Origin: Cenarchaeum symbiosum A
GTDB lineage: Archaea; Thermoproteota; Nitrososphaeria; Nitrososphaerales; Nitrosopumilaceae
DNA: 64,000 nt
NCBI GenBank assembly: GCA_000200715.1
Contig: DP000238.1
Coordinates: 132,832 to 196,831, forward strand
Direction: 5' to 3'
This document shows positions 133 through 16,988 of the stretch, piece after piece (position 1 is the first letter of the stretch; each line of letters begins with the position of its first letter). The translations under genes were made by a program, and so were the position numbers. The notes below the pieces were generated by a model. It ran no database searches. It had not been told where the DNA came from and saw only the letters and a list, made by a program, of their open reading frames with translations.

Positions 133-270
133 CAGTGGCAGCATTAGAATCTGACACAAAATGACATTCACGTGAAAATCATCTGTGCTATAGTTCATGT
201 ATGATCTCTCTGATCTACAGAATAAAACTATGATGAATAATGTGCAATTATCTCATTAATTCTTACGATA

Positions 271-3200
271 ATGACGATCATGGTCGCAGGAGGGGTGACG
301 TTCGCGTTCCCGCCTGCGATACCGGCATACGCACAAAGCAGCGCAGAATACCTGTTTGTATCCGCAGAGAACTCAGATTTCGACAACAGCTTTGCTGGCC
401 CGATGGTCATCGAGGTTGTTGTAAACGATCCGGATCTCAAGGAGATAGACGAGGTAGAAAGCGAGCCAGACGTTACCGTCAACGGCCAGGACCTTGAAAT
501 GGTCCAAGCTACCGACGGCAACTGGTATGCATACTTTGCAGATCGGACTATGGCTACAAGAGCAGACAATCTGACAGATGTACCAGACACCGGCTTGGAC
601 TTTGGCGATGGATGTATGGCACCAACCACCGGTCGATATAGCGACAGTGATGGTGTTTTCTTCCCAAAAATTGGATCTCATGCCGGAAATGGTAAGGGGT
701 TACAAGCTTGCGAGGCTATGGATGCCGTTGATACCGAGAACAGTATGAACGTAATAAGAGAGCCCAAAGAACCTACAAATGCTATAACGGGAACAATGTC
801 AAGAACAGCAGTACTAGAAGGTCAAGTCGGAATTACATCCGGCGAATTCCCCGCAATACAGCTGTATGACTTTACAGTAGACGGCGACGTCGAAGTAAAA
901 TACAACAGAGGTGGTGGAGTTCAGCAGATTGATCTGGCATACCTAGACGACACCAGCGATCTTGTATCTTGGAGTCCTGACAGGTCGGAATATCCTTCGG
1001 ATGCACATGTCCATGTAACAATTACTGACATGCAGCTGAACATTGACCCGACAGACGAGGATTCATGGACGTTCAACACATGGCCTGAGGAGACGCGCAC
1101 ATACTACCAACTATTCGATGAAAATGGGGACTTCGCACCTAATGTTGACCCTAGTGCTAATCCTGATAGCGTAACAGCAATTAATGGTTCAGACCTAACT
1201 GCACTAAACTTCGAGGACAATGGCGTACTGGAAGTGGATATCAACCCCCAAGGTGGGGCTGCGGTGCTGGCACTGGCCGACAATGATGACCAAGAACTTA
1301 CCGATGCTGGCATGATTGTTGGTCTGGATAATGATATGCTTCCAATAACGTTTACCGAAACACAGTCCAACTCGGGTATTTTCGTGAATACTGACGAGGG
1401 CGACCAGGCCAACATCCGGATAGCAGAGGATCCCCCCAGGGAGACGACTGCAACTGTCGAGTATAACGACGAGGCAGGATCCGTGCTTGTAACCGACTTC
1501 TTTGCCAACATAGAGATAGACGAGGATCACGTGGGCGGCACTTGGAACTCCGGCGAGGAGATCCACGTGACGCTTACCGACCAGGATGCAAACAAGAACT
1601 CTCTTGTAGACGAGGACTTTGACCTGTATGAACCCAATGTACTACTGATACCTTCGGTCAGGATAGGCAGCCCGATTACCGGCGCCGATCTGATTGAGGG
1701 GACAGTTCTTGCTGTAGGAGGCGCACAGACAATTACTGGCGTCACGTTCCATACCAGCTCTGATCTTCCCAACGTCATCATTCCCGGCGCTCAGGCTTCA
1801 CTCAACTCTGTTGAGAACCACGATTGTGCCGATCTTGTGGCTAACAGCTTCTGTGTAGAGGCCTTTAGCGATAGGATCAGGATAAACCTAGACCAGGCTA
1901 CAACGTTTGGCGACAATACGCCTAACGACGAGGCAGAGATAGGCTTCACATTTGATCGTGATATTCAAGCTGACATAGTGGAGGATTGGCTAGCACCCGG
2001 CACTGCCGATGCAAAGCACCACTACCTCAACTACGACCTCAGGACCTTTGAGCTCTTGGGCGACGACGGTCAGAACTTTGCAGGCGGAGAGATCGAGATC
2101 ATCGTAGCTGGCACTACAACTGGCCACGCTGGTCCCGATAACATCCACGTGATTGAAGCAGACAGCTTTGCGGGACTGGTCAGTCTTGATGAAGAGGATG
2201 CACGTCCAGGCAATACCAATCGGATATTGGATTCTCTGGATGACGACACCGCACCAGCAACGGGCAATCTGCACGTGCACTTCACCATAGACAGCTTTGG
2301 AGACAATGCTGAGCTACAAAAGGGAGAGTACCCAATGGCAGTAGACCTCTTTAGGTTCGGCCAGACAGGCGATGGTGACGACTTTGACGACAGGTTCAAC
2401 GATGCGATATACCGGATCGAGCTGGAAGAGAGCGGTGATAACACCGGCGCCTTTGAAGGCAGCATGGAGTATATCATGCTCAACCAGATCAACGTAAACG
2501 ATACAACAACATATGATGCAGTCACTCCTATCGACGATGAGATAGAGCTCATAGTCCACGAGGATCTTACCGACGAGGACTCTGTCAGGGTCAACTACCT
2601 TGACCTCGGCGGTGACGGTGTATCCACTCAGGTCGCAGACCAGGTGGCGGCACCGACCCACTCGGGCTCGGTAACCTTTGACGCTGACAACTACAAGGTC
2701 GCAGACACCGTCACAGTGACGGTCGACGATCCGGATCTCAACATAGACGTGGAGACCATAGATGTCTTTACTGTCGTGGATGTGAGCAATGATCCCGCCG
2801 AGGATGCAGTCGGTGCTCCCGGCTACGGAATGAACAGCAAGGAAGAGCCCTTTGGGCGCCTGCTGGACATTACGTTTGACGACGAGACATGGACCGCTAA
2901 CGAGTGTGGCCTAACTGGAATTGACACGGGTCTTGCTTCAACCGGCTTTACATTAAAAGAGACGGCCGCTGATTCAGGGCTGTTTACCGGAGACTTCCAG
3001 ATACCGACACGATACTGTCCCGTAGACCCAGACTTTGGCGATGAAGATGGAGTCACGACCACTGGTACCGACATGGAAGTCAACTATGTTGACTACCGTG
3101 ACGCATCCGGCGAGATAATCGAGGTAGGTGATTCTGTGGGCATCAGGGCCAACACCGGCTCTGTAAGCCTTGACAGGACTGTCTACCCCGTTCCGTTCGG

Positions 3201-5313
3201 CGATTACCTTGACCGCGAGTTCAACTTCCCGATACATGCTGAAGGACAAATCCCTCTCCCCAATAACGCCATTAACCCCGATAACTTCCTTCCCGAAGGA
3301 GTTCTTACCATACACGCCCGGATAAACGATCCGGACTTTGACGTATCTGCAAGCGGTGAGGATAACATTGCGGTTACAACCAACAGGGACGACGGAAACA
3401 GAAACAATGATGAAGGCGATGACATCGATGGTATTGACTTTAACAGTGACGGTACAGTAGACATGGACAACGGTCCACACGGCCCGGTATTATTCACGAT
3501 ATCAAGGGGCGGTACTACCGTATACCACGCAACTGCTGGCGCTCCAGTTGAGCGGGAATTCAATCCTCTCACTCTGGACGAGTCAGACAGGTTTGAGTCC
3601 ACCCTAACACCGGATAACGCCGTCTTTCCCCCAGAATTGGGTCCAATAAACGAGATTGCCCCAGATGCGGGCATCTTCGAGGTGGACCTTGCTATAGCTT
3701 GGAATGACGGCCCCGATGACATGGTTCTGCAGGGAGACATACTCACAGTAGAGTATACCGACCCGACAGACGCATCAGGTGACCCGAATACTGTAACCGA
3801 TTCCGCAACCTTTGACCTCAGAAACGGCGTGCTCCAGTCAGACAAGTCAGTCTACATCATAGGCAGTGACATGATCATCACCCTGATAGAGCCTGACTTT
3901 GACCTGGACAACGATGCCGCAGAGACGTACCCGCTGACTCTCATAGAATGGGATTCCGATGCGGGTTCGGCCACTCTTGGCAGCAACGAAGAGGACTTTG
4001 ATCCTGAACCATCCGATCTCAGGGAGACCGGTGACAGCACTGGCATATTCCAGTCTGTCATAGAGATTCCAGAAGAGGTCGAGAATGACAGGATTGAGAG
4101 AGGCGAAGAGGTAGAACTCGAGTACACCGACTGGGGGCCCGCAGGGGCCGACTTTGTCGGTGAAGAGGACGAGGACATCAACCTGACTATCTTCACGTCA
4201 AACTTTGGAGCGACCATCGAGCTTGACCAGAAGGTCTACTCATGGACGGACAAGGTGTACATTACCATAGTCGCACCCGACCACAACTTTGATGACGACC
4301 TGATAGACGAGATTGGCGAGACCAACCTGGACGAGATTACGGTCTCTACCAGGGAGGACGACCTTGACAACTACAAGCTTGACGAGACGGGCCCCGACAC
4401 CGGCATATTCACGGGTGAGGTAATCCTTACAGGGTTCCCCCACGACGCGGACGGTGACGGCGACTTTGACGCAGGCATGATTGAGACAAGAGGTACAGGA
4501 CCGACAGACGGCTTCCTTGCTTCCGACGAAGATGACGGTCTTACCGTCTCCTTTGAATTCTCGGAAGACGAGACCGTAATAGGCTCCGCACTGATCCGCT
4601 GGAATATAGGTGAATCACAGTGGCTCGAAGCAGCATACCCGGCAACAGGCACAGGCGTGGTCCGCATTGTGGACCCAGATCTGAACCTGAACCCGGAGGC
4701 TGTGGACAACTTTGGTGTGGACGTGTGGTCCGACTCTGATGCAGGGGGCATAGACCTTACTGTAACAGAGACCAACGAGGCCACCGGCATATTCGAAGGA
4801 ACTGTCTCTTTCACTGTCAATGATCAGTCATCAGGCCACAGGCTCAGGGTCGCCGAAGGCGACACTGTGACTGCAAGGTATGAGGACAATACTCTTCCGG
4901 ATCCATTCACTACCGCGGACAACCTCGACATCACGGGAACTGCCATAATCGGCACGATAGTACCTCCCCTCGAAAGGGTGGATATCATCGATGCCAGATT
5001 GGTAGACTCGTTTGGCGGGGCATTGACTACCGTGGCAGTCGATCAGCAGGTGCAGATCACAGCCGATCTGGCAAGCGGCCAGGACAGGGACCAGACATTT
5101 GCGTACCTGCTCCAGGTTCAGGATGCCAACGGCGTGACAGTATCACTCGCATGGATCACAGGATCGCTCGCGGCTGGACAGTCGTTCAGCCCGGCGCTAT
5201 CCTGGATACCCGAGGAAGCAGGTTCGTATACGGCAACCATATTCGTCTGGGAATCAGTTGACAACCCAACGGCGCTATCCGCGCCAGCAACGGTCCAGAT
5301 AACAGTAGCGTAA
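271..5313 (+). CDS. Giant secreted S-layer-like surface protein, copy 1
   Basis: This is a 1680-residue, very acidic (Asp/Glu-rich), lysine-poor protein. The N-terminus is a signal peptide (PAIPAYA then Q, cleavage near residue 21) with no obvious basic n-region. The body holds about seven or eight Ig-like repeats. Each has a strand motif such as DPDLNIDVE, EPDFDLDND or APDHNFDDD, followed some 70-100 residues later by an E-T/S-x-x-x-(S/T)G-(I/L/A)F-x-G motif (for example ETAADSGLFTGDF). The many Asp/Asn residues suggest calcium binding. There is no C-terminal membrane anchor; the end is a beta-rich domain closing in QITVA. Such proteins form or decorate the surface layer of ammonia-oxidising archaea. 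Its paralogue faces it at 6123-11336. ATG 271 is chosen because it is the first start conserved in both copies; the next in-frame ATG is at 280. Confidence 0.85.
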   Translation: MTIMVAGGVTFAFPPAIPAYAQSSAEYLFVSAENSDFDNSFAGPMVIEVVVNDPDLKEIDEVESEPDVTVNGQDLEMVQATDGNWYAYFADRTMATRADNLTDVPDTGLDFGDGCMAPTTGRYSDSDGVFFPKIGSHAGNGKGLQACEAMDAVDTENSMNVIREPKEPTNAITGTMSRTAVLEGQVGITSGEFPAIQLYDFTVDGDVEVKYNRGGGVQQIDLAYLDDTSDLVSWSPDRSEYPSDAHVHVTITDMQLNIDPTDEDSWTFNTWPEETRTYYQLFDENGDFAPNVDPSANPDSVTAINGSDLTALNFEDNGVLEVDINPQGGAAVLALADNDDQELTDAGMIVGLDNDMLPITFTETQSNSGIFVNTDEGDQANIRIAEDPPRETTATVEYNDEAGSVLVTDFFANIEIDEDHVGGTWNSGEEIHVTLTDQDANKNSLVDEDFDLYEPNVLLIPSVRIGSPITGADLIEGTVLAVGGAQTITGVTFHTSSDLPNVIIPGAQASLNSVENHDCADLVANSFCVEAFSDRIRINLDQATTFGDNTPNDEAEIGFTFDRDIQADIVEDWLAPGTADAKHHYLNYDLRTFELLGDDGQNFAGGEIEIIVAGTTTGHAGPDNIHVIEADSFAGLVSLDEEDARPGNTNRILDSLDDDTAPATGNLHVHFTIDSFGDNAELQKGEYPMAVDLFRFGQTGDGDDFDDRFNDAIYRIELEESGDNTGAFEGSMEYIMLNQINVNDTTTYDAVTPIDDEIELIVHEDLTDEDSVRVNYLDLGGDGVSTQVADQVAAPTHSGSVTFDADNYKVADTVTVTVDDPDLNIDVETIDVFTVVDVSNDPAEDAVGAPGYGMNSKEEPFGRLLDITFDDETWTANECGLTGIDTGLASTGFTLKETAADSGLFTGDFQIPTRYCPVDPDFGDEDGVTTTGTDMEVNYVDYRDASGEIIEVGDSVGIRANTGSVSLDRTVYPVPFGDYLDREFNFPIHAEGQIPLPNNAINPDNFLPEGVLTIHARINDPDFDVSASGEDNIAVTTNRDDGNRNNDEGDDIDGIDFNSDGTVDMDNGPHGPVLFTISRGGTTVYHATAGAPVEREFNPLTLDESDRFESTLTPDNAVFPPELGPINEIAPDAGIFEVDLAIAWNDGPDDMVLQGDILTVEYTDPTDASGDPNTVTDSATFDLRNGVLQSDKSVYIIGSDMIITLIEPDFDLDNDAAETYPLTLIEWDSDAGSATLGSNEEDFDPEPSDLRETGDSTGIFQSVIEIPEEVENDRIERGEEVELEYTDWGPAGADFVGEEDEDINLTIFTSNFGATIELDQKVYSWTDKVYITIVAPDHNFDDDLIDEIGETNLDEITVSTREDDLDNYKLDETGPDTGIFTGEVILTGFPHDADGDGDFDAGMIETRGTGPTDGFLASDEDDGLTVSFEFSEDETVIGSALIRWNIGESQWLEAAYPATGTGVVRIVDPDLNLNPEAVDNFGVDVWSDSDAGGIDLTVTETNEATGIFEGTVSFTVNDQSSGHRLRVAEGDTVTARYEDNTLPDPFTTADNLDITGTAIIGTIVPPLERVDIIDARLVDSFGGALTTVAVDQQVQITADLASGQDRDQTFAYLLQVQDANGVTVSLAWITGSLAAGQSFSPALSWIPEEAGSYTATIFVWESVDNPTALSAPATVQITVA

Positions 5314-5329
5314 GACTAGAAAGTTCACA

Positions 5330-5355
5330 TTATCTTTCTTTTTTTTATTTTGACT
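5330..5355 (+). terminator. T-rich terminator after surface protein copy 1
   Basis: A run of eight T after CTTTC, then ATTTTG, lies 15-40 bases after the stop codon, as at archaeal intrinsic termination sites. The identical sequence follows copy 2 on the other strand, so it is part of the duplicated unit. Confidence 0.6.
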
Positions 5356-5710
5356 AGACACAAGCGTATGCTGCGCGGCACACCATGCAGGTTGTCGCCT
5401 GATACGGCCATGACCTTTACACGCTCACCAGACGTTCGTCATGACGGCTTATGTTGACCTCCGACTGTGGGATACGAGAAAGGGCCGAGCGTAGGCGCAT
5501 GCCCTAGTTTGATGTAGCAGTTGGTACAGGCTGGATGGGGGGCACAGTCACTATCCGGGGGATTAACGACTCTACACGGCGAGGCCAGATGATGTTATGG
5601 CCACACGAGGGCAGATCTTAGCCGCGGCTGTACAGATTGGGGCCTCTCAAGCACTGCTTTCGCAGGAGGTATCATGCATGAGTTTTATTGTGCAACTGAC
5701 TGTGTCATAC
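5356..5710. other. Intergenic spacer, no gene seen
   Basis: This is the left half of the spacer between the two surface-protein arms. I see no credible reading frame in either direction. A frame open from 5597 in phase with the small membrane gene has a composition unlike a protein start. A TATA-like GTTTTATTGT at 5683-5692 sits about 24 bases before the ATG at 5711. Confidence 0.5.
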
Positions 5711-5911
5711 ATGCACAAGACCACCGTCATTAAAATCGGAGTCATCGTGGCCGTGGTCGGCGTTGCATACATGGCATTCAACATAACATCCAACTATGAG
5801 AATGGAAGGGAGCCGGAGCTCGGGGAGCGCGTCACATACTATGTGATACTAGTGGCCGGGCTTTTCATAGTGATGTTGGGGGCCACGCGTGATGAAAAGC
5901 CGCATACATGA
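5711..5911 (+). CDS. Small two-helix membrane protein, unknown function
   Basis: This 66-residue protein starts with MHKTT. Residues about 5-22 (IKIGVIVAVVGVAYMAF) and about 42-60 (VTYYVILVAGLFIVMLG) are hydrophobic helices. They are joined by a short polar loop containing an NGREPELGER stretch, and the tail is charged. The start is set by a TATA-like box centred near 5687; an ATG at 5678 in the same frame is possible. It lies alone in the spacer between the inverted surface-protein genes. The family is not recognised. Its location hints at a surface or envelope role, but that is only context. Confidence 0.5.
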   Translation: MHKTTVIKIGVIVAVVGVAYMAFNITSNYENGREPELGERVTYYVILVAGLFIVMLGATRDEKPHT

Positions 5912-6080
5912 GATTTGCCCCAGGTCTGCCTAAGACGACCACCCTGTCATAACCTATCCACCTCAGATCTATCATGCTATCTCCGCTGTCAAATCCAGCC
6001 TGTCAAACACCTGCTGGTCGGTAGCTGTAAGCAAATCAGAGAATAAATCAGGGCACGCCGCGCTGCATGAACCAAGGTTA

Positions 6081-6106
6081 AGTCAAAATAAAAAAAAGAA
6101 AGATAA
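6081..6106 (-). terminator. T-rich terminator after surface protein copy 2
   Basis: Read on the minus strand this is the same CTTTC plus eight-T element found after copy 1, located 17-42 bases past the stop codon at 6123. Confidence 0.6.
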
Positions 6107-6122
6107 TGTGAACTTTCTAGTC

Positions 6123-9100
6123 TTACGCTACTGTTATCTGGACCGTTGCTGGCGCGGATAGCGCCGTTGGGTTGTCAACTGATTCCCAGACGAATATGGT
6201 TGCCGTATACGAGCCTGCCTCTTCTGGTATCCAGGATAGCGCCGGGCTGAACGACTGTCCAGCCGCGAGCGATCCTGTGATCCATGCAAGTGATACTGTC
6301 ACGCCGTTGGCATCCTGGACCTGGAGCAGGTACGCAAATGTCTGGTCCCTGTCCTGGCCGCTTGCCAGATCGGCTGTGATTTGTACCTGCTGGTCCACAG
6401 CTACCGTGGTTAGTGCCCCGCCAAACGAGTCTACCAATCTGGCATCGATGATATCCACCCTTTCAAGGGGGGGTACTATCGTGCCGATTATGGCTGTGCC
6501 CGTGATGTCGAGGTTGTCCGCGGTAGTGAATGGATCCGGAAGAGTATTGTCCTCATACCTTGCAGTCACAGTGTCGCCTTCGGCGACCCTGAGCCTGTGG
6601 CCAGAGGACTGGTCGTTGACGGTAAATGAGACTGTTCCCTCGAATATGCCGGTGGCCTCGTTGGTCTCTGTTACGGTAAGGTCAATGCCTCCCGCGTCAG
6701 AGTCGGACCATATGTCCACACCAAAGTTGTCCACAGCTTCCGGGTTCAGGTTCAGGTCTGGGTCCACAATGCGGACCACGCCTGTTCCAGTCGCCGGGTA
6801 TGCTGCTTCGAGCCACTGCGTCTCGCCGATGTTCCAGCGGATCAGTGCGGAGCCGATTACGGTCTCGTCTTCAGAGAACTCGAAGGAGACGGTAAGCCCG
6901 TCATCTTCGTCGCTCTCCAGGAAGCCGTCTGTCGGTCCGGTGCCGGTGGTATCGATCAGGCCAGCATCAAAGTTGCCGTCGCCGTTGGCATCGTGCAAGA
7001 ACCCTGTAAGGATTACCTCGCCCGTGAATATGCCGGTGTCGGCGCCAGTCTCGTCAAGCTTGTACCCCTCGAGCTCGGCCTCCCTTGTGGAGACCGTTAT
7101 CTCGTCGAGGTCTGTCTCGCCTATCTCGTCTATGAGGTCATCATCGAAGTTGTGGTCGGGTGCGACTATGGTAATGTACACCTTGTCTGTCCACGTGTAT
7201 ACCTTCTGGTCCAGCTCTATGGTTGCACCAAAGTTAGATGTGAATATAGTCAGGTTGATGTCCTCGTCCTCGTCACCGACAAAGTCGGAGCCGGACGGGC
7301 CCCAGTCAGTGTACTCGAGCTCGACTTCCTCACCCCTCTCGATCCTGTCGCCTTCTATCTCCTCGGGGATCTCGATAACAGACTGGAATATGCCAGTGCT
7401 GTCGCCGGTCTCCCTGAGGTCGGATGGCTCGGGATCGAAGATGTTGTCGCCTGCCGTGCCCATGGATATGTCGCCTGCGTCAGAGTCCCACTCGATAAGA
7501 TCAAGGGGGTACGTCTCCGCCGCGTCATTGTCCAGGTCAAAGTCAGGCTCTATCAGGGTTATGATCATGTCGCTGCCTATGATGTATACAGACTTGTCAG
7601 ACTGTAGCACACCGTTTCTGAGGTCGAATGTAGCAGAGTCGGTTACTGTATTTGGGTCACCTGATGCGTCTGTCGGGTCGGTATACTCTACTGTGAGTAT
7701 GTCGCCTTGCATGATGCAGTAGTCAGGCTGTACAGTTCCAGTATTAGAGCTAGGGATGTTTGCAAACCTCACTTCATCATCGCCAAAGTTACCATTGGAT
7801 TGTCGTTCTCGTGCGTTGTCCGTCAGACTGGCGGCCTGTATGTTGTCTGCGTCTGTCTCATACGTTACCGTTTGTGGACACCTGTTGTCTGTTGGACCGT
7901 CAGTATGCCTGATCTTCATGTCCAGCTCAAAGATACCCGCATCGGGCGCGATCTCGTTTATCGGGCCGAGCTCACGGGTGTTATCTTCTACATCGTTACC
8001 AAGTGTGATGAGACCATCTGCTGCATTTTCAGCACCTGCAGTAGCAAGAACTACGGACTCTCCTCCCCTAGATATGGTAATCTTGAGGGGGCCACCCTTG
8101 TTGGTGTTGTCGCGTATGTTTCCTTCTTCTGCGATCTTGTCTTCACCGCTTGCTGAGAGATCATAGTCTGGATCGTTTACACGTACGTGGATTGTGAGAT
8201 CACCGCTGCCTAGCTCCCCATCTGCAGCTGCATGCTGCGGGAACCAGGATATTCTGTCGGGGAACCCGCCATTGGGCTCACGGAATTCTTCCGAAGATCC
8301 AAACGGCACGGGGTAGACGGTCCTGTCGAGACTTACAGAGCCGGTATTGGCCCTAAGCCCCACACTGTCGCCTACCTCGATTATCTCGCCAGACGCGTCA
8401 CGGTAGTCAACATAGTTGACCTCCATGTCCGTGCCTGTTACCGTTTTGAGAACCTCATCCACTGAACAGTAAGTCTTTGGAACCTGGAAGTCTCCCGTAA
8501 AGAGGCCCGAATCAGCCGCGGTCTCCTTTAGGGTAAACCCGGTGTACTCAAGCCCCCGGTCGGGGGATCCGTATATGCGGTTGCCATCGCTGTCATCGCC
8601 ACAGTTGTGTCTCTCTGTCCATATCTCGTCGTCAAACGTGATGTCCAGCAGGCGCCCAAAGGGCTCGTTCTTGCTGTTTACACCATATCCAGATGCGCCT
8701 ACGGCGTCCTGGGCGGGATCGTTGTCTACATCCACGATGGTAAAGACATCTATGGTCTCTACATCGATGTTGAGGTCAGGATCGTCGACCGTCACTGTGA
8801 CGGTGTCTGCGACCTTGTAGTTATCAGCATCAAAGGTTACCGAGCCCGAGTGGGTCGGTGCCGCCACCTGGTCTGCGACCTGGGTGGATACACCGTCGCC
8901 GCCGAGGTCAAGGTAGTTGACCCTGACGGAATCCTCGTCGGTAAGATCCTCGTGGACTATGAGTTCTACTTCATCGTCAATTGGAGATATTGCCTCATAT
9001 GTATCCGAATTGTTGACGTTGATCTGGTTGAGCATGATGTACTCCATGGTGCCTATGAAAGCCCCAGTGTTGTCACCACTCTCTTCCAGTTCGATCCTGT

Positions 9101-11336
9101 ATATGGCATCGTTATACCTGTCGGAGGCATCATCGCCGTCGCCTGTCTGACCGAACCTGAACAGATCTACTGCTATTGGGTAGTCTCCCTTTTCCAAGGT
9201 AGGTGTGCCAATGTTATCTATGGTGAAGTGCACGTGCAGATTGCCCGTTGCACTTTCCAAGGATTCTAGTATGAATCTGTCAGTTGGTCCGGCACCACTG
9301 CGTGGATCATCTTCGTCTAGACTGACCAGTCCTGCAAAGTCGTCCTGTTCTTCAATTCCGTGGGTTAGAGCAACATTACCGTGACCGGTTACAGTACCGG
9401 CTATGATGATCTCGATGTTTCCTCCTGCAAAGTTTGCCTCATCGCCATCGCCCAAGAGCTCAAACGCCCTGAGGTCATAGTTTAGGTAGTGGTGCTTTGC
9501 ATCGGCCGTGCCGTTGAGCAGCCAGTCCTCTACTATGTCTGATGTTATGTTGCGATCGAACGTAAATCCTATCTCTGCTGTACCTGCAACCGAGGCGGGT
9601 GCTGGACCTTGACCGACGCCGAACTCTGTATCATCTGCTAGGTTTATCCTGATCCTGTCGCTAAAGGCCTCTACACAGAAGCCGTTGGCCACAAGATCGG
9701 TACAGTCGTGGTCCTCCGCCCAGTCGAGCGAATGCTGTGTGCCAGGGCTTAGAACGCGGTCAGCGGCAAGAGTGCCAAGATTAGAGCTGGTATGGAACGT
9801 GACGCCAGTAATTGTCTGTGCGCCGTCTACAGCAAGAACTGTCCCCTCAATCAGATCTGCGCCGGTAATCGGGCTGCCTATCCTGACTGAAGGAATTATT
9901 AGCACCTCGGGCTCGTACAGCTCAAGGTCCTCGTCTACAAGAGAGTTCTTGTTTGCATCCTGGTCGCTAAGCGTTACGTGGATCTCCTCGCCGGAGTTCC
10001 AAGTGCCGCCCACGTGATCTTCGTCTATCTCTATGTTAGCAAAGAAGTCGGTAACAAGCACGGATCCTGCCTCATCGTTATACTCGACAATAGCAGTTGT
10101 CTCCCTAGGGGGATCTTCTGCTATCCGAATGTTGGCCTGATCGCCCTCGTCAGTGTTCAGGAATATGCCTGAATTTGACTGTGTTTCAGTAAACGTGATT
10201 GGCAGTCTGTCATTTTTGAAATCGGCAGTACCGAAGCTAACATCTGAATTGGTGCTGTTAGCTATACTTCCATCCACTAGTTCTTGGTCATTATTGTCGG
10301 CTAGTGTAAGCACAGCATCAGTAAGATCCTCACTTTGGGGACTTATGTCTACTTCTAGTACACCATTGTCCTCAAAGTTCAGCGCGGTTAGGTCTGCATC
10401 TTCGATGATCGTAGCATCGTTGGTATTAGTGGCATTCGCAAACTCTCCATTTTCATCGAATATCTGGTAGTAGGTGCGCGTCTCTTCTGGCCATGCGTTG
10501 AACGTCCATGAATCTTCGTCTGTCGGGTCTATGTTCAGCTGCATGTCAGTAATTGTTACATGGACATGTGCGCCCGAAGGATATTCCGACCTGTCGGGAC
10601 TCCATGATACGAGATCACTGATGTCATCCAAGTATGCCAGATCGATCTGCTGAACTCCGCCACCCCTGTTGAACTTTATCTCGACGTCACCGTCTACTGT
10701 AAAGTCATAGAGTTGGATTGCGGGGAACTCGTTAGGCAGGACACCGATCTGTCCCCTAGACACATCATCTACATCCTCTGTTCTGCTGTCTCCGTTGAAG
10801 TTAAAACCATCTTCATTGTCAGTTGGAACCTTTTCTTCCCTTATTACGTTCATGCTATCATCGTTGATGGTACCAAAGATAGTATTAGTTATAGTCGATG
10901 ATGTACAATCTACATTGTGCTGAAAGAACACACCGTCGGTATCTTGATAGCGGTCAAGCGCTTCAACCAACATGCTGTCTTCTTCACACATGTTGCCAAA
11001 GTCCAAGCTGGTTCCAGCATTATGATCTTCAACTAATTCATCAGCCGTCATCGCCATGGTCAGATCAGCAAAGTATGCATACCAGTTGCCGTCTGTCGCC
11101 TGAACCATTGTCAGATCCTGGCCGTTGACGGTAACATCTGGCTCGCTTTCTGTCTCGTCTATCTCCTTGAGATCCGGATCGTTGACAATTACTTCTATGA
11201 CCATCGGGCCAGCAAAGCTGTTGTCAAAGTCCGCATTCTCGGCGGATACAAACAGGTATTCTGCGCTGCTCTGTGCGTATGCCGGTATCGCAGGCGGGAA
11301 CGCGAACGTCACCCCTCCTGCGACCATTATCGTCAT
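6123..11336 (-). CDS. Giant secreted S-layer-like surface protein, copy 2
   Basis: This is a 1737-residue paralogue of the protein at 271-5313, read convergently towards it, with the same signal peptide, Ig-like repeats and QITVA end. The first 95 or so residues and roughly the last 330 are almost identical between the copies. Segments around residues 95-185, 305-365, 540-580 and the stretch near residues 1080-1240 differ in length and sequence. Copy 2 has an extra Cys-containing segment (about 60 residues, including DNRCPQTVTYE and QPDYCI) that copy 1 lacks. In the conserved end the proteins agree while the DNA carries clusters of silent differences. Function is inferred as surface layer or adhesion/host contact. 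ATG 11336 corresponds exactly to ATG 271. Confidence 0.85.
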   Translation of the reverse strand: MTIMVAGGVTFAFPPAIPAYAQSSAEYLFVSAENADFDNSFAGPMVIEVIVNDPDLKEIDETESEPDVTVNGQDLTMVQATDGNWYAYFADLTMAMTADELVEDHNAGTSLDFGNMCEEDSMLVEALDRYQDTDGVFFQHNVDCTSSTITNTIFGTINDDSMNVIREEKVPTDNEDGFNFNGDSRTEDVDDVSRGQIGVLPNEFPAIQLYDFTVDGDVEIKFNRGGGVQQIDLAYLDDISDLVSWSPDRSEYPSGAHVHVTITDMQLNIDPTDEDSWTFNAWPEETRTYYQIFDENGEFANATNTNDATIIEDADLTALNFEDNGVLEVDISPQSEDLTDAVLTLADNNDQELVDGSIANSTNSDVSFGTADFKNDRLPITFTETQSNSGIFLNTDEGDQANIRIAEDPPRETTAIVEYNDEAGSVLVTDFFANIEIDEDHVGGTWNSGEEIHVTLSDQDANKNSLVDEDLELYEPEVLIIPSVRIGSPITGADLIEGTVLAVDGAQTITGVTFHTSSNLGTLAADRVLSPGTQHSLDWAEDHDCTDLVANGFCVEAFSDRIRINLADDTEFGVGQGPAPASVAGTAEIGFTFDRNITSDIVEDWLLNGTADAKHHYLNYDLRAFELLGDGDEANFAGGNIEIIIAGTVTGHGNVALTHGIEEQDDFAGLVSLDEDDPRSGAGPTDRFILESLESATGNLHVHFTIDNIGTPTLEKGDYPIAVDLFRFGQTGDGDDASDRYNDAIYRIELEESGDNTGAFIGTMEYIMLNQINVNNSDTYEAISPIDDEVELIVHEDLTDEDSVRVNYLDLGGDGVSTQVADQVAAPTHSGSVTFDADNYKVADTVTVTVDDPDLNIDVETIDVFTIVDVDNDPAQDAVGASGYGVNSKNEPFGRLLDITFDDEIWTERHNCGDDSDGNRIYGSPDRGLEYTGFTLKETAADSGLFTGDFQVPKTYCSVDEVLKTVTGTDMEVNYVDYRDASGEIIEVGDSVGLRANTGSVSLDRTVYPVPFGSSEEFREPNGGFPDRISWFPQHAAADGELGSGDLTIHVRVNDPDYDLSASGEDKIAEEGNIRDNTNKGGPLKITISRGGESVVLATAGAENAADGLITLGNDVEDNTRELGPINEIAPDAGIFELDMKIRHTDGPTDNRCPQTVTYETDADNIQAASLTDNARERQSNGNFGDDEVRFANIPSSNTGTVQPDYCIMQGDILTVEYTDPTDASGDPNTVTDSATFDLRNGVLQSDKSVYIIGSDMIITLIEPDFDLDNDAAETYPLDLIEWDSDAGDISMGTAGDNIFDPEPSDLRETGDSTGIFQSVIEIPEEIEGDRIERGEEVELEYTDWGPSGSDFVGDEDEDINLTIFTSNFGATIELDQKVYTWTDKVYITIVAPDHNFDDDLIDEIGETDLDEITVSTREAELEGYKLDETGADTGIFTGEVILTGFLHDANGDGNFDAGLIDTTGTGPTDGFLESDEDDGLTVSFEFSEDETVIGSALIRWNIGETQWLEAAYPATGTGVVRIVDPDLNLNPEAVDNFGVDIWSDSDAGGIDLTVTETNEATGIFEGTVSFTVNDQSSGHRLRVAEGDTVTARYEDNTLPDPFTTADNLDITGTAIIGTIVPPLERVDIIDARLVDSFGGALTTVAVDQQVQITADLASGQDRDQTFAYLLQVQDANGVTVSLAWITGSLAAGQSFSPALSWIPEEAGSYTATIFVWESVDNPTALSAPATVQITVA

Positions 11337-11426
11337 TATCGTAAGAATTAACCGTTTACCATGAGCCTATTACGTCGTCAACCCCCCGGGGGGACAGATT
11401 ATTATGAATAGAAAACCGTGCTTGAA

Positions 11427-12098
11427 ATGCGGGCATATGCCGGCAAGACAAACCTACACTTGGATGTTCATAAGACGTTTATACGAAGTTGCTCCACCGC
11501 ACTCCCGTTGGGCAAAAAATGCTTTGTGTGCAAGCAGAAGATGGGCGGCAAAGATGAGTATCTGGAGCATACGATCAGGTATATAGGCGGCAGTAAGATT
11601 GGAGATCTGGCCTTTCACAAGGACCCCGCATGCTTCAACGAAGGAGCCGATATACTGGCCAGACAGCTGCGGGGAGATGGTGACAAGTATGCTCTGGTCG
11701 AGACGAATGCGGGGGGATGTGACTACGAGTACCATATGATGCTGAACGAATACGGCAAGATGATTTTGTTGTATATGATAGTTCGCCACGATGGCAAAAA
11801 GGAAGCAGAACCAACGACTCTCAAATTTCTAAGACAGTTTTACGATACAGATGAGCTCATATTTCTCGGTACGAGCTATACCATGGAAAAGAGCCATTAC
11901 TTCATGCTAGCCCATGTGTCAGACAGAATATTCAGCTCACACTTCAATGCAGAGAATTACAAGCGGGACAAAATTCGTCAGGAAGAAGTATGGCAAGATC
12001 TGCAGATCAGGGGAGAAGTTGAACTAGAAGAGGTTAAAATTCTCGCTGAGTTTGCCTTACAATGTATGGGTATAATCGCTGACAAGTCTGGGCAGTAG
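11427..12098 (+). CDS. Conserved-looking hypothetical protein with one CxxC pair
   Basis: This is a 223-residue soluble protein. Near the N-terminus KKCFVCKQK gives one CxxC pair, followed by YLEHTIRYIGGSKIGDLAFHKDPACF; together these could form a single zinc site (C-x2-C ... H ... C). The rest is mixed alpha/beta with no motif I recognise. The start at ATG 11427 rests on a TATA-like ATTATTATG at 11398-11406, about 25 bases upstream. A GTG at 11418 is in frame, and an ATG at 11404 is in another frame and yields an unconvincing protein. The gene diverges from surface protein copy 2 across a 90-base gap. A regulatory or processing role is possible but not shown. Confidence 0.55.
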   Translation: MRAYAGKTNLHLDVHKTFIRSCSTALPLGKKCFVCKQKMGGKDEYLEHTIRYIGGSKIGDLAFHKDPACFNEGADILARQLRGDGDKYALVETNAGGCDYEYHMMLNEYGKMILLYMIVRHDGKKEAEPTTLKFLRQFYDTDELIFLGTSYTMEKSHYFMLAHVSDRIFSSHFNAENYKRDKIRQEEVWQDLQIRGEVELEEVKILAEFALQCMGIIADKSGQ

Positions 12099-12135: not shown

Positions 12136-13665
12136 TCAGCACCCGGCATCTCTTGCCCACCGCTCAGTACCGAACCCCGTCTCCATACAGTGCGGCTTGT
12201 ACAGGCCGGCAAGACCCTCGTCTAACAGGATCTCGTTTATCGAATGAAGGGGGATCCCGCTTATCTTTTCCGTACACCAGACCTTGGCTATCATCTGGCC
12301 GTCGGATTCCGCCCCGTCTGTCTCATAGTATACCTCTGATCCCTGCGGGCAGAGCTGCTCGATGGCGGGCATGCCCACTCCGGGCCCCGCCCCGCCATCC
12401 ACAAGCGCGAGCGCAATTACCCCTGCCTCCGTGCCCATTCTGTTGATGCTGCTCAACTGGGCAATCCTGGTCAGCTCCACCGTTGCAAGGTCGGGCGGGT
12501 CATCGGGCCCCAGCCTCCCGCCTTCGGAGGTATCAGCAGATGGTACGGCATCCGGCGCGGGACCTCCGGGCGCCGCGTCATCCTGGACAGGGCCGGAGAA
12601 TCTCGGCTCATACATCATGCCGATAAGCGGCACATCATACCCCAGATAGACGGCAAATCCAAACAGGAAAAGGACTGTCATCCCGGCTGCAATGGCCACA
12701 TGGGACAGCGGCGGCCTTCTGCCGGGCTTGGCTTTCCCGGCAGGCTCCGCCTTTGGCGCAGGCGCGCTTGCCGCATGCGTGTATGGCTCAAGGCCGCGCA
12801 CCAGCTGGCCTGCGGGAGCCTCTGGATTGATCCCATCCTTCACCGGGGGTTCTGCGGCCTCTGAGAGATCCGGCCAGACCTCCTCCAGGGGTTTCTCCCA
12901 GTACTCTGTGTCTGTTGGCTTTGCAATGCCTAGCTCCCCCTCGAACCTGTCTGCAATGGAACCTATCTTTTCGTGTATGGCCTCCGAGCTGAGATTCTCG
13001 ACCTCCTCCGGGGCCCTCCTGCACGTATCATCATCGACTATCCTGTGCTCCCTTAGCGCCTTCTCGTGCCTCTCTCCGGGCCTGCCGCCGCCAAGAAAAG
13101 CCAGGACCCGCCCTTTCTCACCGCATATATCCGTGATCTTGCCAATGTGGGAGGCAAGGTCACTGCCGGCAAATGCCACCGCATTATCATATCCGGCACA
13201 GCCCATGTTCAGCACATCCCACCATCCGTCGACGAGTATGATCCATCCTGATGTAGAGGCCCCCGGGCCGCAGTCAAGACCGGCATCCTTGTACTTGACT
13301 GGCCTGCTGGTGCCCTCCGAGGGCACCCGCACTATGCGTATCTCCAGATCAAACATGTCCCTTTCGTAAATGTAAATCTTGTCGGCATCAGCCAGGACTT
13401 TCGACACCATCTTGCAGTAATTCTCGTCAACGACCGGTATCAGCATCTTCCCCGTCCACACGGGACTGCCGTCTTCTTCGCCGCCGGTGAACTTTTTGAC
13501 GTAAATGTCCTCTATCACCCCCGAGTTTTTCAAGTTGACCAGGGCTGTCTCTTTCAAACCACCGATCCCCATGTACAGGAGTGAATTGCGCACGTCTGTG
13601 CCCTCGATGGCCGCCTTGAACTTGTAGTGCACCTTTACACAATACTTGTAGCTCGTCCCGGACAT
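12136..13665 (-). CDS. Membrane-anchored protein with C-terminal SNase-fold domain
   Basis: The 509-residue protein starts MSGTSYKYCVK. About 320 residues of unrecognised N-terminal region, which begins with a ferredoxin-like run (VKVHYKFKAAIEGTDVRN), precede one transmembrane helix near residues 321-342. A Pro/Ala/Asp-rich linker follows, then a C-terminal domain (about 395-509) resembling thermonuclease/SNase proteins (EAGVIALALVD, GQMIAKVWC, SINEILLDEGLA, W-A-R-D-A-G-C end). The DTPE-like metal loop is not recognisable, and the usual GR before L-I-A-K is GQ, so nuclease activity is doubtful. The frame is open 87 codons further upstream, but that part is Arg/Pro/Gly-rich and implausible, so the internal ATG at 13665 is preferred. 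The gene diverges from the RecB-like gene. Confidence 0.6.
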   Translation of the reverse strand: MSGTSYKYCVKVHYKFKAAIEGTDVRNSLLYMGIGGLKETALVNLKNSGVIEDIYVKKFTGGEEDGSPVWTGKMLIPVVDENYCKMVSKVLADADKIYIYERDMFDLEIRIVRVPSEGTSRPVKYKDAGLDCGPGASTSGWIILVDGWWDVLNMGCAGYDNAVAFAGSDLASHIGKITDICGEKGRVLAFLGGGRPGERHEKALREHRIVDDDTCRRAPEEVENLSSEAIHEKIGSIADRFEGELGIAKPTDTEYWEKPLEEVWPDLSEAAEPPVKDGINPEAPAGQLVRGLEPYTHAASAPAPKAEPAGKAKPGRRPPLSHVAIAAGMTVLFLFGFAVYLGYDVPLIGMMYEPRFSGPVQDDAAPGGPAPDAVPSADTSEGGRLGPDDPPDLATVELTRIAQLSSINRMGTEAGVIALALVDGGAGPGVGMPAIEQLCPQGSEVYYETDGAESDGQMIAKVWCTEKISGIPLHSINEILLDEGLAGLYKPHCMETGFGTERWARDAGC

Positions 13666-13974
13666 TGTCGCTGTACCGTTTCTACGGGCCGCCTCTGCGC
13701 TAGTTAAGTCTGACTGTATGCGGCCTTGAAAGCCGGCCCCTGCGGGACAGGCAGGCGCGTGCCAAGGCCGGCGCGAGGCCCGCGGATCCCCGCCTGTGCG
13801 GGGGGCTCCTTGGAATACTTGAGCCGGAGTCTTCCCGACGCCGTGCTCCACAAGGCCGCCATGCAATGCACGGAGATCCCATGGATCCGCCGAGAACAGG
13901 CCCCTCTGGAGGCGCAGCCGGGGCACAAGGGGCTGCCAGATGCATTATATGGAATGCAATGCAGCCGGGCGTGC
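13666..13974. other. Divergent intergenic region, promoters only
   Basis: This GC-rich stretch lies between two divergent genes. Frames extend through it on both strands, but the translations are rich in Arg, Pro, Gly and Ala with no domain. The only signal I see is the TATA-like box for the plus-strand gene. Confidence 0.5.
13944..13952 (+). promoter_or_regulatory. TATA-like box of the RecB-like gene
   Basis: ATTATATGG stands out in a GC-rich region. It is centred 27 bases before ATG 13975, which predicts a leaderless message and fixes that start. Confidence 0.55.
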
Positions 13975-15249
13975 ATGAATGCCGATGAACTGTACAGCTC
14001 CTGCGTGGACGGCCCCGATTATTCCATTACGGGAGCAGAGGTGTTCAGGTATGCAATGAGTCCGTTCTTTTATTACTGTGAAAAGTTCGCCGACAGGGGC
14101 GGGGCCGACCCCCCGCCGGGGAACGTAAAGGGCGGTAGTCCCTATGTGGATGATATGGACCGCGGGACCGCTCTGGACTGTACAGGCGACAAAGACTGCT
14201 TTAGGGAATGCATACGGCTGATGTTCGACGGGCAAGATGAGATATGCAACGCCCCCCTGCTGTACCTGCCGGAGGGCATCGCCGGCAGGCCGGACATCCT
14301 AAGAAAGGCAGAGGGCAGATCCATATTCGGGGGCCACTATTACGCGCCCGCCCTGGTGATAATGGCGCTAAAGCCCAGGCGGGATCACGAGATGCAGGCG
14401 GCATTCTACTCTTATCTATTGCACAGGATACAGGGCAGGCGCCCCGAATTTACAGTGGTGGACGGGAGGGGGGGAATCCATGACAGCCCGGCGGGAGATA
14501 ACACGGACTCTGTGCCGGGGAACATCGAGGGCATGCGCCGGATAGACTCGGGGCACGTCCCCCCGGCCGAGGTGTTAAGGAGGCCGTGGACTTCATATTC
14601 GATAAAAAAGGCGCTAGAGACAGGCCATCTGAGCCTGGTCTTATGGCTGGACGGGAGCAAGATACGCAGGCTCGAGAGAAGCGGCATACGCGACGTATCC
14701 GCGCTGGCAGGCACCACCACGAGCACGATATCCTCGATATGCAGGGTGGACAGGCGCAAGGCCGGAATATTGAAGGGGATGGCCCGGGCCGCCGCGGAGC
14801 AAAAGCCCATCGTATTCAAGGACCCCGAGGTGGACGATACGGGCGCAAAGTCGTTTCTGGCGGTGGAGACTGAACGCATAGACAACAGGATAGAGATGAG
14901 CGGTGCGGCCGTCCTTGTGCGGGATGAATCCGGGGAGAGGCGCCGCACATTCGAGGGGGACGGCATGATGGACGGGATATCCGGGTTTGTCCGGGGCAGC
15001 ACGGTATACTATTGGGGCAGGAGGGCGCTCACCCTGGCAGAGTCATCCGGGGGACAGATGCCCCGCGGCATGCGAAACCTGATGGAGATATTCGCAGAAT
15101 CCATCACATTCCATCTCCCCCTTGTGGATCCCGAGCATATCTCCCGGGAGATGGGACACCCCGTCGAGAACAGCGTGCCGGGCGAGTGCATAGCTCTCAG
15201 AAACATACACGACTGGCTGCTCTCCAAGAGGGGCCAGGGCAGTCCCTAG
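13975..15249 (+). CDS. TM0106-type RecB-like/RNase H-like protein, active sites degenerate
   Basis: The 424-residue protein follows the domain order of the TM0106/RecB-like nuclease family. An N-terminal SITGAEVFRYAMSPFFYY block corresponds to the T-x-L/S-x-L-x-x-Y-x-x-C-P motif. GIAGRPDIL and KPRRDHEMQAAFYSYLL match the PDDEXK region. A helix-hairpin-helix section follows (GSKIRRLERSGIRDVSAL ... MARAAAEQKPIVF), and a C-terminal part starts FLAVETERIDNRIEMSG, like the D-x-E RNase H-like domain. The D/E-x-K pair expected before KPRRDHE is not visible, and AVETE lacks the first Asp of D-x-E, so catalysis may be lost. The start is set by the TATA box at 13944-13952. A role in DNA processing is inferred from the family only. 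Confidence 0.55.
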   Translation: MNADELYSSCVDGPDYSITGAEVFRYAMSPFFYYCEKFADRGGADPPPGNVKGGSPYVDDMDRGTALDCTGDKDCFRECIRLMFDGQDEICNAPLLYLPEGIAGRPDILRKAEGRSIFGGHYYAPALVIMALKPRRDHEMQAAFYSYLLHRIQGRRPEFTVVDGRGGIHDSPAGDNTDSVPGNIEGMRRIDSGHVPPAEVLRRPWTSYSIKKALETGHLSLVLWLDGSKIRRLERSGIRDVSALAGTTTSTISSICRVDRRKAGILKGMARAAAEQKPIVFKDPEVDDTGAKSFLAVETERIDNRIEMSGAAVLVRDESGERRRTFEGDGMMDGISGFVRGSTVYYWGRRALTLAESSGGQMPRGMRNLMEIFAESITFHLPLVDPEHISREMGHPVENSVPGECIALRNIHDWLLSKRGQGSP

Positions 15250-15452: not shown

Positions 15453-16988
15453 ATGAAATTAATCTCGCCGACAGATTTGACAAAGTCTCGATCTTTTATC
15501 CGTGAATTTTTAGAACCTGTCGTGAACAACGTGTACACCCGTACGGCAGGTACGGCGCATGTGCGGGGCGAAAAGTACCGCAGAATAATGGAGATGCTCC
15601 CGCCGGACGAGCCGGTCCTCTTTGGAAATCTTTACGAGAACAACAGGACAGAGCTCTCATCCATGTATACAAAGAACACCCGCATAATGCTCAGCAGGGC
15701 CCTCAGCTGGGGCTGCAAAAACGGCATACTATCCAGGGACAACCCCGGCAGGGTCCCTGACTGGTTCTATGAGATAAAGTCAGTCTCCCGCTGGGCAGCA
15801 CAGCTCCAGGGCAGCAACATGAAGCACCCGGAAAAGAAATCCTACGACAGCAGCACAAGAAGGCAGTATGTGCAGTGCCTCTGGAACTTTAACCGGTGGA
15901 TAACAGGCAGAACCTTTGAGATCAGAGAGTACTGGCCCACCCCCGAGGGCACATACGCTTTGCGCTCCGAGACTAGAAACTTTGAGAACGTGGGGGACCT
16001 TCTAGACGTCCTGGAGAGGCCGCTCGCAGATTCCCGAAACGTATCCAGGATAGTAAAGGACTTTCTCCTAGACAGAATGGAGACGCACAGCGGCTCGTCC
16101 CATATCATGATGTACAAAAACTCGATCGTCTCATACTTTGACAAAAACGAGCAGCAGCTCAAGCTCTCGTTCAATCCTAGACTCAGCCGCGGCCGCTCCG
16201 CCTATGAACAGAGCATGGACCTGCCCGAGTTCCTCAGGTTCATGACCGACGGAGCGCCTTCTGTAATGGAGCGTGCCCTGTTCATGTGCAAGTTCCACCG
16301 GGGCCTGGACGTATCCACTTTAGTAGACGGCTTCAACTATGAGGTGTGGGACCAGCTTGTACAGTGGTTTCATACAGAAGACTATACCTCATGGGATCTT
16401 GGCAAATGCCCTGTACCCGTATCCCTCATCCGGGTCAAGACCGGCTACCGCCATATAGGATTCCTCGAGAGGGATTCCATGGTCTGCCTGACAGAGTACC
16501 TGGACTACAGAAGAAGAGCGACAGGCAGGCCCATGATATCAGGCGAGCCTCTATTCCTCAACAAGTTCGGCAGGCCTGTCACAAGATCGTGGACGTTTGC
16601 CAGCTTTGTCAGGATAGCAGACAGGGCAGGAATAAGAAAGCAGACCATCATAGACGGAAGAAGCAGGTACAATCTGGATTCACACGAGCTGCGCGATCTT
16701 CTAAAGTCCACCCTCATAGACTGTGGCTGCAGGCCCGATGTCGCAGACCACGTTATCGGGCACAAGCCCAGGGATTCATACGAAAAACAGGCCCGCCTCT
16801 ACCCTGAGACGTTAAGAAGGGAATACTCGAGAGCCTCCCCCCGACTGAACATACTCACGGGGAATGCCGCCGCCCCTGCAGGGGATGCCCTGGCCAGATG
16901 CGAAGCAGCAATAGGCGAGATCAAATTGCGAATGCAGGAATTTGACACACAGATTATCCGCATGAGGGAGATGGCCGCCCCCGGATGA
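15453..16988 (+). CDS. Tyrosine recombinase/integrase-family protein
   Basis: The 511-residue protein has the C-terminal catalytic layout of tyrosine recombinases. Arg283 lies in MCKFHRGLDVSTL, Lys329 in RVKTGYRHIGF, the H-x-L-R box in HELRDLL (His411, Arg414), His437 in VIGHKPRD, and the nucleophile is Tyr443 or Tyr450. The N-terminal 250 residues are helical and DNA-binding-like, and a short coiled coil closes the protein. Such enzymes cut and rejoin DNA through a 3'-phosphotyrosine, for integration or chromosome-dimer resolution. No attachment-site repeats or other mobile-element genes were seen beside it, so it may be a resident recombinase. A TATA-like GTAAAATACT at 15419-15428 supports the ATG. 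It converges on the hydratase gene with no gap (stop codons abut). Confidence 0.8.
   Translation: MKLISPTDLTKSRSFIREFLEPVVNNVYTRTAGTAHVRGEKYRRIMEMLPPDEPVLFGNLYENNRTELSSMYTKNTRIMLSRALSWGCKNGILSRDNPGRVPDWFYEIKSVSRWAAQLQGSNMKHPEKKSYDSSTRRQYVQCLWNFNRWITGRTFEIREYWPTPEGTYALRSETRNFENVGDLLDVLERPLADSRNVSRIVKDFLLDRMETHSGSSHIMMYKNSIVSYFDKNEQQLKLSFNPRLSRGRSAYEQSMDLPEFLRFMTDGAPSVMERALFMCKFHRGLDVSTLVDGFNYEVWDQLVQWFHTEDYTSWDLGKCPVPVSLIRVKTGYRHIGFLERDSMVCLTEYLDYRRRATGRPMISGEPLFLNKFGRPVTRSWTFASFVRIADRAGIRKQTIIDGRSRYNLDSHELRDLLKSTLIDCGCRPDVADHVIGHKPRDSYEKQARLYPETLRREYSRASPRLNILTGNAAAPAGDALARCEAAIGEIKLRMQEFDTQIIRMREMAAPG

Follow-up and report, generated by a model that had tools for sequence, protein, structure and literature searches.

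Tail-to-tail S-layer gene copies in the sponge symbiont Cenarchaeum symbiosum: a probable expression site with three candidate silent donors

Introduction

Among bacterial and protozoan pathogens, it is characteristic that a surface protein is varied by gene conversion from silent copies. Variation of the S-layer itself is known from Campylobacter fetus, where the sapA system comprises one promoter on a movable, invertible segment and silent homologues with a conserved 5' end.

The silent-copy systems reviewed in PMC4534519 and PMC11276520, i.e., Neisseria pilE/pilS, Anaplasma msp2, Borrelia vls and vmp, and trypanosome VSG, resemble the gene copies described here in that one locus carries a promoter and a full start while the other copies carry neither, and in that conserved ends enclose the mosaic, variable interior of an abundant surface protein. 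In the vsa system of Mycoplasma pulmonis (PMC4534519), as proposed here, an expression site provides the promoter and the N-terminal coding part, and the silent genes are promoterless. Archaea possess efficient gene conversion (PMC11276520), and no case of antigenic or phase variation of archaeal S-layers, or of archaeal silent-copy conversion, was encountered in the full-text literature searched, coverage of which is incomplete.

The S-layer protein of Nitrosopumilus maritimus (NmSLP; PDB 8c8k) has N-terminal domains 1, 2 and 4 outermost and glycan-bearing, while its last domain lies in the pseudoperiplasm, faces the membrane and may anchor the layer (PMC11153153). The expanded S-layer set of C. 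symbiosum has been remarked on earlier (PMC6790972), and the passages found in that source mention neither truncation nor recombination.

Two pairs of facing S-layer gene copies

The window, i.e., the whole stretch of 64,000 nucleotides that was analysed, lies at positions 132832-196831 of a chromosome represented by a single contig of 2,045,086 bases and contains two facing, tail-to-tail ORFs, here called copies A and B. A preliminary description of this DNA had reported two giant facing paralogues of 1680 and 1737 residues, and both were confirmed as intact frames, at 271..5313 on the plus strand (A, 1680 aa) and at 6123..11336 on the minus strand (B, 1737 aa). Their identity amounts to 82% in aligned residues and 80% in nucleotides. 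The inverted repeat of more than 5 kb per arm described at the time is real, but it is not one uniform arm, being composed of 18 blocks of 73-93% identity (the largest of 1384 nt at 89%) separated by gapped or unalignable stretches.

The A and B proteins are homologous to NmSLP (phmmer E = 0, 1530 bits), a match to a solved S-layer protein for which chance is excluded; this homology extends over nearly the whole length, with the same order of domains by alignment (PDB 8c8k, PMC11153153). A Pfam search of the two giant proteins returned no family, while an NCBIfam search returned a weak match, far below cut-off, to an anammox S-layer family. AlphaFold prediction for residues 1-1150 of A, based on 13 sequences, gave a pLDDT of 41 and thus an unusable model.

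A further tail-to-tail pair of this S-layer gene lies elsewhere in the chromosome, approximately 155 kb from the A/B locus across the numbering origin and outside the window. It consists of copy C, which is complete (chromosome 2023760-2028928, plus strand), and copy D (chromosome 2030326-2035519, minus strand), whose reading frame shifts near residue 480 and is disrupted again by additional indels of lengths not divisible by three. These frameshifts may be sequencing errors, since fosmids from a natural population were combined to make the reference genome (PMC2704941); for the same reason, no switch would be visible in the reference.

A sister species (G001) possesses one full-length close S-layer homologue, which has the start MKDRNIYRKMTSIILATIM and a promoter box. 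The neighbours of this gene correspond to chromosome 2006519-2008599 and 2041444-2045052, i.e., to genes that flank the C/D locus with order and orientation preserved, although at a distance and with lineage-specific DNA between. Judged by this synteny, C occupies the ancestral S-layer position, and the A/B locus is derived. The left flank of the A/B locus is present in the sister species with no S-layer gene next to it, but synteny is lost on the right, so that a clean empty site did not emerge from the comparison. No tRNA was found beside either locus, which argues against a tRNA integration site, and no Rfam families were found in the first 20 kb of the window. A transposed element with terminal inverted repeats was also considered for the A/B locus: its ends are inverted gene starts, but no target-site duplication or transposase was seen.

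Several genes near the A/B pair were recorded. On the left flank (L012 407-6547) lie two helicase genes of the SNF2/ResIII type, defence-like in character, one of which has a C-terminal NO VEIN domain. Beside the pair, the ORFs at 12139-13926 and 13726-15246 exhibit partial similarity to DnaG primase and to a RecB-like TM0106 family nuclease, both below cut-off. In the S-layer region of another family genome (G019), a perfect 2.6-kb palindrome (L061 2454-5047) and an imperfect 2.1-kb one nearby (L062) were noted, which are probably assembly artefacts.

Start and promoter regions

The shared homology of A, B, C and D begins at TCTTACGATAATGACGAT, inside the signal-peptide codons, and the DNA upstream of this point is unrelated among the four copies. 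A 33-base pattern starting at TCTTACGATAATGACGAT has exactly four occurrences in the genome, which are the 5' ends of the four copies; in the window it opens the 5' block of A (261..339, plus strand) and that of B (11268..11346, minus strand). In copy C the frame runs upstream to ATGAACAACAAACTAGGACGAAAAATAACTAGT, giving MNNKLGRKITSLTIMTIMVAGG, and C is the only one of the four to carry the full signal-peptide start MNNKLGRKITSLT, which is conserved across the Nitrosopumilaceae. Copies A and B are truncated alike, with the first 14 signal-peptide codons and the S-layer promoter missing, and represent putative silent donors. An in-frame stop lies 11 codons upstream in A (TAA, with no start codon between) and likewise in B (TAG); in A, B and D generally, such a stop is reached within 10-11 codons or fewer, the intervening start codon is absent, and there is no positive charge ahead of the hydrophobic stretch. 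The identical 15-base 5' flank noted in the preliminary description (256-270 and 11337-11351) is correct, and is mostly a remnant of the signal-peptide codons that are complete only in C.

Most of the 21 inspected starts of relatives' S-layer genes read MNNEIGRKITSLTLMTIM, and a box, TTCGTCCATTAGNCTTWWATAC, is common to these genes and lies 30-50 bases ahead of the start. At the box position C carries TTCATTAGCCTTTTATAC, its only exact occurrence in the genome. With a promoter PWM built from 13 relatives, for which 426 null segments reached a maximum of 13.4, C scored 26.6, while A (-3.2), B (3.5, approximately the 95th percentile of the null) and D (-6.9) scored far lower. The ORF upstream of B (11418-12098) is divergent, and so no operon could supply a promoter to B. 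A promoter-like match with three mismatches near B was rejected, as it lies on the wrong strand and is no better than a reversed-pattern control.

Among the matches listed from 151 family genomes, long homologues match from query residue 1-7, whereas A, B and D match from 10-12; the only other exception (G124) possesses its own, complete signal peptide. The sampled NmSLP relatives possess one to few complete genes, and among their listed long homologues there are no start-less copies. Where a further close paralogue of the S-layer gene exists in Nitrosopumilaceae (L039, L040 and L045), its start is complete but its upstream region differs, MYNE replacing MNNE in two of the three. The family's conserved start, MNNxxGRKITSLT, and promoter are thus present in C and absent from A, B and D, and by these sequence characters A and B are gene bodies of the NmSLP family, not complete genes. 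Nevertheless, promoters that escaped recognition could drive their expression, the signal peptide then being shortened.

Conserved ends and spacer

Between copies, the 5' block of approximately 78 bases shows one to three differences. The 3' block of A (5224..5355, plus strand) comprises the last ~30 codons, the stop and a family-type 3' element with a T-rich stretch; that of B (6081..6212, minus strand) is identical to it over the 132-base tract, and both are 99-100% identical to C and D, the other pairs having identical 3' tracts of 130-139 bases. The practically identical last ~130 bases of all four copies reach 40 bases past the stop, where the DNA corresponds to an S-layer 3' element found across the Nitrosopumilaceae (ACTAG(T)..TTCACA..TATCC, followed by T runs). 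The preliminary description was right about a 42-base identical 3' flank (5314-5355 and 6081-6122); its suggestion that convergent transcription through this flank could yield double-stranded RNA is not borne out, since both arms look promoterless and the flank is this family-wide element with its T-rich stretch.

The 11-mer CTAGTCTTACG has five occurrences in the genome, all at the ends of A, B, C and D. Each of the four copies has it in inverted form at the 3' end, as CGTAAGACTAG at 5309..5319 (plus strand) in A and at 6117..6127 (minus strand) in B according to the genome-wide search, while at the 5' end it is complete in C only; A, B and D are truncated within it at their 5' ends, where TCTTACG remains. 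Across the Nitrosopumilaceae, the signal-peptide codons of S-layer genes include ACTAGTCTTAC, conserved at the nucleotide level, and ACTAG(T) recurs immediately past the stop (L038-L081 ends). The ends of copy C (L011 5287-5300 and 10424-10434) are exact 11-bp inverse complements, and in two divergent relatives 9 and 8 bp match their own other end best, while in most relatives the complementarity does not exceed that of shuffled controls. It is possible that S-layer mRNA ends pair with each other.

The spacer between the 3' ends of A and B (5356..6080) is, in its B-proximal part, homologous to the C-proximal part of the C/D spacer. A BLAST match (L012 13277-15542 to L011 11102-8828) extends from the spacer into the gene, and the orientation of the spacer relative to the B/C-type arm is the same at both loci. 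The A/B spacer contains a gene for a hydrophobic orphan protein of 66 aa (5711..5911, plus strand), which has a 97% identical copy in the C/D spacer (L011 10638-10838), the changes being mostly silent, and which is absent from 60 other family genomes searched.

Mosaicism and selection

Alignment of the four copies yielded 372 sites at which two copies share one base and two share another, 209 of these supporting AB|CD, 93 AC|BD and 70 AD|BC. Such sites are clustered by topology: 235 neighbouring sites had the same topology as against 153 +/- 8 in permutations (maximum 190), and third codon positions alone gave 118 as against 81 +/- 6 (maximum 104). A three-state path contained ten topology switches, with a log likelihood of -338 compared to a null maximum of -405. 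AU tests, whose p-values are optimistic in that segment 4799-4962 and some others were picked after the site pattern had been viewed (which leaves the permutation tests unaffected), favoured AD|BC in alignment columns 1000-1380 (others p = 0.016 and 0.020), AB|CD in columns 1460-2420 (others p = 0), AC|BD in columns 4799-4962 (others p = 0.021 and 0.025), AB|CD in columns 5100-5700 (others p <= 0.001), and AD|BC in the downstream flank and spacer (p = 1, others <= 0.0001). Each of the three topologies thus wins significantly in some segment. Furthermore, the flanks pair A with D and B with C, while the gene bodies mostly pair within a locus, a contradiction that points to exchange both between facing arms and between loci. 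As read from these patterns, the copies recombine within and between the two loci, and the exchange of segments between arms that had been suggested for A and B finds support in the mosaic trees and the permutation tests alike.

Pairwise dN/dS among A, B and C is 0.18-0.23, which indicates that A and B are not decaying freely, and dS ranges from 0 in the last 23 codons up to saturation in variable parts. The first ~1170 residues exhibit 73-76% identity among copies with many in-frame indels, as compared to 99-100% in the last 179 residues. Placed on the NmSLP topology (PMC11153153), this pattern would agree, if weakly, with a protein that is variable outside and constant inside. Comparison across genera also places the highest conservation in the C-terminal part, and so part of the pattern is ordinary constraint.

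Discussion

The observed anatomy, mosaicism and purifying selection of the four copies would be explained if C, the one complete gene, were the expression site, and if A, B and D were silent donors that exchange segments with it by gene conversion, which we consider the probable arrangement. According to this model, the start-truncated, promoterless copies would act as silent cassettes and would not be expressed, and homologous recombination, as gene conversion or as crossover between facing arms, would move internal segments between the four copies, with conversion running into C. The near-identical 5' and 3' blocks would supply homology on both sides of the exchanged segment, while start and promoter would stay in place at C as internal segments are replaced, and the tail-to-tail pairing of facing copies may favour exchange. 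The outcome would be changing outer S-layer domains with a constant secretion signal and membrane-side end. S-layer-targeting viruses or recognition by the sponge could drive such change, its presumed benefit being escape from viruses or sponge recognition. Surface variation in a host-associated archaeon, as envisaged in the preliminary description, thus appears a likely role.

At sequence level, this anatomy corresponds to that of the silent-copy gene conversion systems reviewed in PMC4534519 and PMC11276520: a single site, C, has a promoter and complete start (and is predicted to be expressed), the other copies, A, B and D, lack both, and all share conserved 5' and 3' ends with mosaic interiors. 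It differs from the Neisseria, Anaplasma, Borrelia and trypanosome systems in belonging to an archaeon and a symbiont, in involving whole 5-kb S-layer genes rather than short cassettes, in the tail-to-tail pairs and open frames kept, in having only three donors, which is few for silent-copy systems, and in that switching here is a prediction from sequence. With C. fetus sapA the present copies have in common an S-layer protein, one promoter, putatively silent homologues and a conserved 5' end; here, however, the promoter remains in place beside C and the 3' ends enclose the spacer. Homology between the two systems is not expected.

The preliminary description had proposed flipping of the spacer, beside exchange of segments, and an inversion switch, in which recombination between facing arms flips the spacer and thereby changes expression, might be expected from the inverted arms at both loci. 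A 511-aa ORF at 15453-16988 weakly resembles tyrosine recombinases (E 4e-5 to PF00589, which is below cut-off, and E 8e-4 to phrog_216), and no site-specific recombinase was recognised among the C/D locus neighbours tested; M. pulmonis vsa uses site-specific inversion (PMC4534519), whereas the present loci do not both have a recognisable dedicated recombinase. As the arms are tail-to-tail, no promoter in a spacer reads into the 5' end of an arm, the S-layer promoter box lies only upstream of C and not on an invertible segment, and the spacer has the same orientation relative to the B/C arm at both loci, so that by its sequence the anatomy fails to fit an invertible-promoter system. With the spacer at the 3' ends, and A and B without start and promoter, a flip would only swap gene tails; it is possible, but it would not switch A or B on. 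Inversion at C/D would exchange 3' halves, which is a form of the donor model rather than a separate on/off switch, and we regard a switch of the latter kind as highly improbable.

Purifying selection would likewise be expected of expressed paralogues that evolve in concert, in which case several or all copies would contribute to a mixed or condition-dependent S-layer and the patchwork would have arisen without switching. The intact frames of A and B at a dN/dS of ~0.2 speak for this, as do the two close S-layer paralogues, both with full starts, in several Nitrosopumilaceae, and the six S-layer proteins that, according to PMC6790972, a sponge symbiont relative expresses. Yet each paralogue of the relatives keeps a start and its own promoter region, whereas A, B and D lack both from one identical point and D is frameshifted, which makes expression of this kind unlikely. 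The same losses, and the frameshifts of D, could mark A, B and D as dead duplicates in decay among which recombination is incidental; against this stand frames of 1680 and 1737 codons that are intact despite synonymous divergence saturated in places, together with the dN/dS of ~0.2, and dead duplicates are in our view very unlikely. The reference was built from few fosmids of a mixed population with ~2% divergence within and 15% between subpopulations (PMC2704941), and population variants of one gene might in principle have been placed as separate loci. The four copies have different upstream flanks and different neighbours, however, their divergence is well above within-population levels, and each pair of ~11 kb should fit in one fosmid, leaving an assembly artefact barely credible.

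The donor model in its fullest form would be an antigenic-variation-type system in an archaeon, with one S-layer expression site and three silent 5-kb donors linked by gene conversion, evolved in a sponge symbiont and with cassette boundaries at the 11-bp end repeat; this combination of claims we put forward tentatively, as one that may well not hold in all its parts. If true, variation would affect the protein of the ammonium-sieving S-layer, which encloses the entire cell of this symbiotic ammonia oxidiser, and this would suggest that animal symbionts, or their viruses, exert on archaea the kind of pressure that pathogens experience from immunity.
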